Below, piece after piece: positions 10,470 to 13,474 of a stretch of DNA of 64,000 nt. The position numbers and the translations under genes were made by a program. Under the pieces are notes generated by a model. It ran no database searches. It had not been told where the DNA came from and saw only the letters and a program-made list of their open reading frames with translations. Numbering within the stretch: the stretch's first letter is position 1; each line of letters starts with the position of its first letter. Origin of the DNA: Helicobacter aurati (GTDB lineage: Bacteria; Campylobacterota; Campylobacteria; Campylobacterales; Helicobacteraceae). Location: contig NZ_NXLW01000001.1 in NCBI RefSeq assembly GCF_003364265.1, positions 124,001 to 188,000 on the forward strand, given 5' to 3'.

Positions 10470-12077
10470 TTAGAAAAAATAAAATGCTCGTAATTTTGCA
10501 CTTCTTGACCTTGGGTTATTACGTATTTCTTCATGACTTGCAACTAAAGGCTTTTTATAGAGAATCACACCTTTTGCGTGATTGTTGCCACATTCGCATT
10601 TCATGCTATCCTCTGCGCAAATACAGCTTTTAGCCCACTTTTTCATAGATTCTTTTATCATTCTATCCTCCAATGAATGAAAAGAAATCAAACACACTAT
10701 AGCTTTACGAATCTTGCTGCAAGATTCTAATAGTTTTGCTAATTGCCCTAATTCATCATTAACCTCAATACGTAACGCCTGATAAATCAAAGTAGCGGGG
10801 TGAATCCTTTTTTTGCAAGAAAGTTTAAGCGCAATGTTTTGCAAAACTTCGCCTGTAATCCTGCCCTTTTGTCGCGCGCTGACAATCAAACTTGCAAGTT
10901 TTTTATAAGAAGCAATTTCCCCGTAATCACGAAAAATCCTCTCTAAATCATAGCCACTATAAGAATGAAGAATTTGTGCAGCATGCAAACTTTGTGTTGT
11001 ATCCATGCGCATATCGAGCTCTGTCGCTTGAAAATTAAACCCTCGATTAGTGCAATCAAACTGATGAGAGCTTACTCCTATGTCTGCGAGAATACCTTTG
11101 AATTTATTAGGATACAAGTCGCAAATTTCCAATATTTCAGGTAATGCGCTAGCAAAATCCCCTTGATGTAAATAGATTCTGTTAGGAAATGTTTCTTGCA
11201 ACGACTGATTGGCATTGATTGCTTCACTATCTCTATCAATACCAATAATACTTATATCTTGATAACGACTAAGAAGAGCACTGCTCATTCCACCAAACCC
11301 CAATGTACAATCAATAATACACGAAGTAGAGTCTGCGATGAATTGTTGTATCGTCTGTTTATTGATATTGCTTTGCATAGAATCAACAAAGGAATGTTGA
11401 GCATTACACGATGAAAGAGAGAGGTTATCGTTCGCTATTTTTGACGGATAAGAAAGTTGCATTTCAGAAAAAACAGAATCAAATGTGTGTAAAACTTCTT
11501 GCAAAAGCACGGGAACATGCACCTCAAATTGTGTAGAATCAAGTGGATTATCCTGCGATATAGAAGAAAGGGATAAATTAATTGGTTGTTCCTGTGTAGA
11601 GGGGAAATGGGCAATCTCTTGTGTTACTTGCGTTTTATTCAATAGAGAATCTCTATATCGCTCAAGAATGATACAAGCACTAAGACTATCAATTTGTCCA
11701 TTTTTGCGCGCCTGTCTCCTTGCCTTATAGCCCCTATGCTGCAATCTCTCCTGTGCCTCTTTACTGCTATTTGATTCGTTGACAAAAACGATTTTTCCGT
11801 TAAATTCTATGAGATTCAAAAAACGTAAAACTTGGTTTTTTGTAATATGTGAAGAATCTGACAAAGTAGAATCTGTATTAGGCAATCCAACAACCAACAA
11901 AATTTCTTTTTCGTTTTTTTGATGAATGGAGTGCTCTTGTAAGATTCTAGCCAACTCTTTACTTGCTTGATGTTTGTTTGTACGAATAATTGGAGGTAAA
12001 GGTAAAGCGATTTCTCCAACAAGCTTGGCTACCCCGATACGTTTTGTACCAAAATCTAATCCAAATACCATTAGCAT
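10470..12077 (-). CDS. RuvX (YqgF) - RsmH fusion: RNase H-fold protein joined to 16S rRNA m4C1402 methyltransferase
   Basis: One uninterrupted 535-residue frame joins two normally separate proteins. Residues 1 to about 145 are RuvX/YqgF: FGLDFGTKRIGVAK at the start, FVNESNSS, and QIDSLSACIILERY, all matching the H. pylori RuvX pattern. A linker (about 146-180) is rich in Q, S, D and T. Residues from about 182 are RsmH: HVPVLLQEVL, a SAM motif CTLGFGG (about 253-260), GIDRDSEAI, the substrate motif GILADIGVSSHQFD, then RIEVNDELGQL and SFHSLEDRMIK. A second polar insert of about 50 residues splits HVPVLLQEVL from the SAM motif, where RsmH normally has about 15. An internal GTG before HVPVLL could also start a free RsmH, but no good ribosome site precedes it. 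The ATG overlaps the mtaB stop (TAATG). Confidence 0.9.
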   Translation of the reverse strand: MLMVFGLDFGTKRIGVAKLVGEIALPLPPIIRTNKHQASKELARILQEHSIHQKNEKEILLVVGLPNTDSTLSDSSHITKNQVLRFLNLIEFNGKIVFVNESNSSKEAQERLQHRGYKARRQARKNGQIDSLSACIILERYRDSLLNKTQVTQEIAHFPSTQEQPINLSLSSISQDNPLDSTQFEVHVPVLLQEVLHTFDSVFSEMQLSYPSKIANDNLSLSSCNAQHSFVDSMQSNINKQTIQQFIADSTSCIIDCTLGFGGMSSALLSRYQDISIIGIDRDSEAINANQSLQETFPNRIYLHQGDFASALPEILEICDLYPNKFKGILADIGVSSHQFDCTNRGFNFQATELDMRMDTTQSLHAAQILHSYSGYDLERIFRDYGEIASYKKLASLIVSARQKGRITGEVLQNIALKLSCKKRIHPATLIYQALRIEVNDELGQLAKLLESCSKIRKAIVCLISFHSLEDRMIKESMKKWAKSCICAEDSMKCECGNNHAKGVILYKKPLVASHEEIRNNPRSRSAKLRAFYFF

Positions 12078-13474
12078 TACTTCAATACAAAGCTTTTAAC
12101 AATATTGGCATTTACATAGTTAGATAATATGTAATCACTCGTTTCTATCCAATCACCTTTAGATAACTGATGTGATGATTCCATAATTCTATGCGGAATA
12201 AAAACACGATTAAAATACTGATCTAATCCTGTATAGCAAGATTCTATCATTTCATTGTCTTTGATTGTGTCGTGATGGCGACTTGCATGTGATATTTCCT
12301 GATGTGTGGATTCTAAATCCAGCTTATCAAATAATACTTGCTTTTGTCCATCAATAAGAATCTGTAACGGAATTTTTTGTTGCGCAATTCGCATTCGAAA
12401 ATCTTTATTTTTTTGATTCACAATATTTTGAATAGTTTTTAGACGTTTTTTGGCAACTCCCCCATGAACAGATTCTAATTGTTCTTTATTTTGAGCAGAT
12501 TTTGTCCCAACTCTAGGACTATAAATAAAAGGATGAATATGCGTAAGTGGCAACTTCTCTAAATTACATAAAGCCTCCGCAAATATTGCTTCACTCTCAC
12601 CATAATGTCCAACAATATAATCCGTACCCAAACTAAAGCCCTTAGCCGCAATATGTGCAAACAACTCAAGGTCTCTCTCAAAAGTATTTTTGCGATTCAT
12701 AATTCTTAGCATAACAGGACTTGTATGCTGCAAAGCTATATGTAAATGTTTTTCTAACTTTGGAAGACACAGAATCTGCAAGAATACAGAATCTATTTGG
12801 CTAGGCTCAAGCGAACCCAACCGAATCCGTTTAATGCCCGCAATATCATGTATCTTTGCAATAAGCTCTGCTATATGCGTACCCGTGTCTAGCCCATAGC
12901 TACCAATGTTTGTGCCCGTTAGGATAACTTCACTAATCCCATTTTCAGAAAGGATTCTTATTTGCTCTAAAATATGCGCTTGAGTAAAACTTCTTGCTAC
13001 CCCACGCACGCTTGGGATAATGCAATAACTACATGAGAAATTGCACCCCTCTTGAATCTTAATAAATGCGCGAACCCTACCTACAATATTTGGCAAGATT
13101 ACAGAATCTGTATGTTTATGCTTACTTTCCTTAGAGAGAAAAACTCTTTGCTGCGTAGAGAGGATATTTGAAATGTTTTCTTTATGGCTATGTGCAAAAA
13201 CACTAAAAGCAAGGTTTTGCTTATAAAGAGATTCGCCTAAATGTTTGACACCGCAACCTGTAAAAATAACTTTTTTACCCAATAGACTATATTTCCTTGC
13301 ATAGCTTCGCACTTCTCTATCTGCCTTATTGGTAACAGTGCAAGAATTAATCACAATAATATCAGCCTCCAAGGGCTCTTCTATTAAAGAATAACCCTTA
13401 AGACTGCTTATCATCACCTGTGTATCATATAAATTACTACGACAACCAAAAGTTTTAAAAAACACCTTTAGCAA
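12077..13474 (-). CDS. mtaB: tRNA t6A37 methylthiotransferase
   Basis: MtaB adds a methylthio group to t6A37 of ANN-decoding tRNAs. It is a radical-SAM enzyme with an N-terminal UPF0004 domain (FFKTFGCRSN, INSCTVTN, FTGCG supply the auxiliary-cluster cysteines), the radical-SAM motif CNFSCSYC (about 143-150) and a C-terminal TRAM-like part. The GCRSN and VRGVARS signatures favour MtaB over MiaB or RimO. The start is TTG with AAGGGA 5 bp upstream. It is the first gene of a two-gene unit with the ruvX-rsmH fusion. The rimO paralogue is at the right window edge. Confidence 0.92.
   Translation of the reverse strand: MLKVFFKTFGCRSNLYDTQVMISSLKGYSLIEEPLEADIIVINSCTVTNKADREVRSYARKYSLLGKKVIFTGCGVKHLGESLYKQNLAFSVFAHSHKENISNILSTQQRVFLSKESKHKHTDSVILPNIVGRVRAFIKIQEGCNFSCSYCIIPSVRGVARSFTQAHILEQIRILSENGISEVILTGTNIGSYGLDTGTHIAELIAKIHDIAGIKRIRLGSLEPSQIDSVFLQILCLPKLEKHLHIALQHTSPVMLRIMNRKNTFERDLELFAHIAAKGFSLGTDYIVGHYGESEAIFAEALCNLEKLPLTHIHPFIYSPRVGTKSAQNKEQLESVHGGVAKKRLKTIQNIVNQKNKDFRMRIAQQKIPLQILIDGQKQVLFDKLDLESTHQEISHASRHHDTIKDNEMIESCYTGLDQYFNRVFIPHRIMESSHQLSKGDWIETSDYILSNYVNANIVKSFVLK

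Follow-up and report, generated by a model that had tools for sequence, protein, structure and literature searches.

Whether RuvX (YqgF) proteins are chiefly RNA or DNA enzymes is disputed, and contrasting reports are cited in PMC9601230. According to that account, processing of pre-16S rRNA is reported for E. coli YqgF, which is also said to share cleavage sites of RNase E/G, and YqgF of D. radiodurans is an RNase without resolvase activity. The same account cites reports that the H. pylori homologue, DprB, binds and resolves Holliday junctions and that the M. tuberculosis homologue acts on such junctions (PMC9601230). The methyltransferase RsmH, as described in PMC5053481, uses the assembled 30S subunit, not bare 16S rRNA, and therefore acts late. 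Here we describe a locus of Helicobacter aurati at which these two known families form a new domain combination; "the window" denotes the whole stretch of DNA that was analysed (64,000 nucleotides). A search of the literature, with coverage that leaves out most subscription journals, found no paper on a fusion of RuvX/YqgF with RsmH/MraW.

Two complete domains in one reading frame

The ruvX and rsmH sequences of the window lie in a single open reading frame of 535 codons, uninterrupted from ATG to stop (Table 1). Pfam places RuvX (PF03652) at residues 4-142 with 74.6 bits against a cut-off of 29.2, and Methyltransf_5 (PF01795) at residues 234-532 with 274.6 bits against 27. Curated NCBIfam models agree for RsmH (TIGR00006, 272.2 bits, cut-off 154.3) and for RuvX (TIGR00250, 51.8 bits, cut-off 43.25); the RuvX equivalog NF001026 reached 117.5 bits, below its cut-off of 155, though residues 3-143 were covered. 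The genome (99.5% complete, 48 contigs) contains a single match to each family, and both fall inside the fused frame. A preliminary description of this DNA had read the frame, at exactly these limits, as RuvX joined to RsmH by a polar linker with the key motifs of both proteins intact, and our analysis bears out each part of that reading. The linker has 45 residues, of which 64% are S, T, N, Q, K, E, D, R or H. We checked 32 catalytic and SAM-binding positions, picked from known motifs, and 31 are identical across the seven fusions described below, including the SAM motifs and the three RuvX carboxylates D8, E101 and D130 (7/7). On the basis of order and motif rather than an alignment, these carboxylates would be the counterparts of D22, E106 and D122 of D. 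radiodurans YqgF.

Table 1. Features of the fused locus and its upstream partner (window positions).
Feature	Position	Strand	Basis or remark
ruvX-rsmH fused ORF, 535 aa	10470..12077	-	single copy in genome
RuvX/YqgF domain, residues 4-142; carboxylates D8, E101, D130	11652..12068	-	Pfam; 7/7 fusions
Polar linker, residues 142-186, low confidence (pLDDT <50 at 159-185)	11520..11654	-	sequence and model
RsmH/MraW methyltransferase domain, residues 187-535, beginning at HxPVLL motif	10473..11519	-	Pfam, NCBIfam, fold
Polar low-confidence stretch in N-terminal part of RsmH, residues 206-235	11373..11462	-	sequence and model
Possible internal start, GTG at residue 190 after GAGGTG	11508..11525	-	no counterpart in other six fusions
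mtaB-like radical SAM gene, upstream partner	12077..13474	-	frame list and Pfam

A structure model of the fused protein (mean pLDDT 76.3, pTM 0.60; alignment of 12 sequences, with RuvX covered by only two) has two folded parts, and pLDDT falls below 50 at residues 159-185 and 206-235. Structure comparison matched the fold of the RsmH domain to 3tka, 1m6y and 1n2x (Z 28.6-31) and to METTL15 (Z about 30), the METTL15 structures including mitochondrial small-subunit assembly intermediates. Methyltransferases filled the list of matches to the fused model; the E. coli YqgF structures 1nu0 and 1nmn were matched by sequence. Unfused RsmH proteins begin near the HxPVLL motif. Separately, we observed that between HxPVLL...TFD and IDCTLG the RsmH proteins of this genus have a polar insert whose length varies (for example, window 11373-11462, or locus L043 of G037); in the seven fusions the two motifs are 37 to 91 residues apart.

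Distribution and history of the fusion

The fusion is real and confined to one Helicobacter group. RuvX was matched in 118 of 121 family genomes and RsmH in 119, and the preliminary description had pointed to the taxonomic spread of two-domain proteins as informative: RuvX and RsmH share one open frame in seven genomes, all among the 14 of the window's GTDB genus (G000, which is the window's, G037, G038, G040, G043, G046 and G047). These frames run to 528-652 codons, the longest being that of Helicobacter didelphidarum MIT 17-337 (G037; NZ_NXLQ01000032.1, L054). None of the 104 RuvX-bearing genomes from other genera of the family is fused, and the longest RuvX frame among them has 188 codons. 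Wider searches of the order (398 genomes) and the phylum (298 genomes) returned no further RuvX-RsmH fusion among the matches listed. In the phylum search, full-length matches (model 1-545 or 1-546) among those listed came from only four genomes, all of the window's genus; such a match is an imperfect detector, and the search gave the window's own fusion only as an RsmH piece. A set of 49 scattered bacterial genomes (50 of 80 loci, minus one), 47 of them with RuvX, likewise held no further fusion.

Several long frames also came up. Those with RuvX among the 49 scattered genomes belonged to H. didelphidarum (652) and to G567 (790), and in the latter RuvX only sits in a long frame opposite a gene that we take to be phosphatase-like, with a presumably MltG-like gene after it. 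A frame of 731 in G546 has a weak RuvX match under the cut-off, and G192, which the phylum search presented with a 763 aa RsmH frame, showed two separate frames on inspection. Within the family, one genome (G032, 99% complete) has RuvX and no RsmH match. In another, an intact copy of RuvX is accompanied by a further RuvX-like stretch (G114:C1:9687-10046) that contains six stop codons and may be a decayed duplicate or a foreign remnant.

We then compared gene neighbourhoods. In other genera of the family, a dprA-like frame lies directly upstream of ruvX in at least 24 of 30 loci (the best 30 of 118 by score; 22 called by a motif rule, three of these confirmed by Pfam, and two missed by the rule and confirmed by Pfam). 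In the window's genus, ruvX has left this usual neighbour. The gene directly upstream in the window, where a DprB-type locus would have dprA, is mtaB-like, a MiaB-like radical SAM gene, and its stop overlaps the ruvX start codon by one base. Judged from its start sequence, the upstream gene is mtaB-like in 13 of the 14 genus genomes, G045 being different, and Pfam confirmed this identity for the window and for G101, a genome of another genus. The gene dprA itself was found in 12 of the 14; the window's genome has it on a different contig, C48. As an aside, the mtaB-like gene (window 12077-13474 and its relatives) has an apparent TTG start in most genus genomes, ahead of a conserved KVxFKTFGCRSN.

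Unfused relatives suggest what came before. In two genus genomes, G042 and G044, the order is mtaB-ruvX-rsmH; the stop of ruvX overlaps the start of rsmH, and this rsmH start is preceded by a good Shine-Dalgarno sequence (dG -4.9 and -5.2). The same order, again with overlapping ruvX and rsmH, is found in G101 and G102, outgroup genomes from another genus, and the overlap in all four spans 4 to 11 bases. We regard this overlapping arrangement as the probable starting state. In two other genus genomes, G041 and G045, rsmH lies elsewhere and the genes are apart.

Three near relatives of the fused G040 show a natural split. In G035, G036 and G039 an insert of 1.25 kb divides the fusion within the linker, and ruvX and rsmH each remain whole. 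On either side of the insert G035 is collinear with G040, and it carries about 1.25 kb (L140 4483-5733) in place of 64 linker bases (L141 6325-6388); two small frames inside this insert matched no Pfam family. G036 and G039 show, in addition, an inversion of the rsmH part. Past the ILERY motif, the split RuvX proteins retain a tail of about 90-97 residues matching the linker of G040, and the split RsmH proteins start just ahead of HIPVLL. Because such a RuvX tail can be explained only as what is left of a linker, the joined form would have preceded the split form in these genomes.

To place these forms on a phylogeny, we built a tree from MtaB, RuvX and RsmH (888 columns, 16 genomes; G045 without MtaB); a previous tree that left out MtaB had weaker support. 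In the tree with MtaB, G042 and G044, the overlapping pair, form the sister group of G043, G047, G040 and the split genomes (support 97/98), and within the G040 group the fused genome is placed only tentatively relative to its split relatives (88/89). Holding all fused and split genomes together was rejected (p-AU 0.0106, for a group chosen by trait and with the deep forks of the genus tentative), which disfavours a single origin without reversal. If split genomes are counted as formerly fused, two changes of state suffice, and the tree is equally compatible with a pair of fusions and with a single fusion plus a return to separate genes; the clean overlap common to the outgroup favours two fusions. 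The fusion has thus probably changed state more than once.

Readings of the joined protein

We surmise the following course of events. In this Helicobacter lineage ruvX would have come to lie between mtaB and rsmH, where it overlapped rsmH by a few bases and was probably translated in coupling with it; loss of the stop, followed by growth of the linker, would then have joined the two genes. We infer that a single polypeptide is made from an RNA-modification operon, and that in it a disordered linker connects an RNase H-like nuclease (RuvX/YqgF) to a whole RsmH methyltransferase. The two independent catalytic units would be supplied in equal amounts and delivered jointly to late 30S/pre-16S particles, where RsmH would methylate C1402 and RuvX would trim or inspect precursor RNA.

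This bifunctional polypeptide, bringing RuvX and RsmH together at the late 30S/pre-16S stage, is the reading we favour, at somewhat better than even likelihood. Joint service to the late 30S is the most economical function because RsmH is specific for the 30S, its domain matches METTL15, E. coli YqgF is reported to act on pre-16S rRNA, and RuvC and RsmI are each present in 14/14 genus genomes while RNase E/G is found in 0/14. The preliminary description had seen in the fusion a physical link between 16S end maturation and decoding-site methylation. Its structural premises stand: the genes are fused, the motifs are intact and the linker is polar. The joint action itself is plausible, and we infer it from those premises and the context just given. 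In sum, the fusion suggests that RuvX and RsmH cooperate on the nascent small ribosomal subunit, though it is no proof that they do.

On whether the tether matters, a neutral origin is nearly as likely as joint service. Here overlapping neighbours would have been joined by chance loss of a stop, and the enzymes would work separately, the tether being merely tolerated co-synthesis; taken as a whole, this explanation is a substantial possibility that falls short of even likelihood. Unfused overlapping forms exist, the genes lie apart in two genomes, and the seven linkers (45-120 residues, 57-69% polar or charged) have no sequence common to the whole set. Moreover, the natural insert splits the linker with neither gene lost, and the physical tether is therefore not essential. 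Against neutrality, 7/14 genomes are fused and the tree demands at least two changes of state, and if both were gains this would point mildly to an advantage; yet one gain and one reversal fits the tree as well. The lineage, with its fused, overlapping, split and separated forms, amounts to a natural experiment in which the same pair is joined or apart in close relatives.

RuvX could have stayed a DprB-like recombination protein, with RsmH merely riding along, a reading that gains from the junction binding and resolution reported for H. pylori DprB (PMC9601230) and from the dprA-like frame that precedes ruvX in at least 24 of the 30 family loci compared above. We consider it rather improbable for the window's genus, where ruvX no longer adjoins dprA and its new neighbours are RNA-modification genes. 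The presence of RuvC throughout the genus also means that a second resolvase exists.

A bolder extension of joint service would have RuvX move from the competence pair dprA-dprB to ribosome maturation. The fusion would then be a checkpoint enzyme: RsmH would anchor it to the late 30S and methylate C1402, while the nuclease, tethered on a long flexible arm, would finish or inspect the 16S end in bacteria that lack RNase E/G. We offer this only tentatively, as a proposal with the odds clearly against it.

Separate products could also arise if RsmH were made additionally, or only, from an internal GTG at residue 190 or 186. The preliminary description had raised a second start before HVPVLL. We scored the in-frame start candidates in each linker and the first RsmH residues for anti-Shine-Dalgarno pairing. 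In the window's copy, the GTG at residue 186 has no Shine-Dalgarno sequence. The GTG at residue 190, inside the motif, has GAGGTG 9 bases before it (dG -6.9); among the window's genes, 24% of 34 gene starts are at least this strong, compared with 2.2% of 767 internal start codons. However, this signal is seen in the window's genome only and is missing from the other six fusions, including the nearest relative G038 (dG 2.9 at the corresponding start), and starting there would lose the HVP of the conserved HxPVLL. No internal start with a Shine-Dalgarno sequence is common to the seven, and a conserved internal RsmH start was accordingly rejected; one at residue 190 in the window's copy is possible but unlikely, and we rate separate synthesis as a whole as a slim prospect.

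Finally, a sequencing or assembly error joining two frames, which the preliminary description had allowed for, can be dismissed: 7/14 genus genomes are fused through differing linkers, the H. didelphidarum fusion was read from two collections, and the frame is kept over 580 variable linker codons without a stop (joint chance from base composition about 10^-20.9), whereas most other reading frames of the same linkers contain stops.

Comparison with known systems

The fused protein combines features of systems described separately. Like E. coli YqgF/RuvX and H. pylori DprB (PF03652), its N-terminal part is an RNase H-like domain with three conserved carboxylates; those proteins stand alone, whereas here the domain belongs to a two-domain protein encoded beside mtaB rather than dprA. 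Its C-terminal part is a complete methyltransferase domain, as in RsmH/MraW (PF01795, TIGR00006; Z about 31 to 1m6y/1n2x) and METTL15, and differs from them in that a RuvX domain and a linker precede it and a polar insert lies close to the RsmH N-terminus. A related arrangement is the mtaB-ruvX-rsmH locus of G042, G044, G101 and G102, which shares the gene order of the fusion but keeps ruvX and rsmH as separate overlapping genes where the fusion has one frame.
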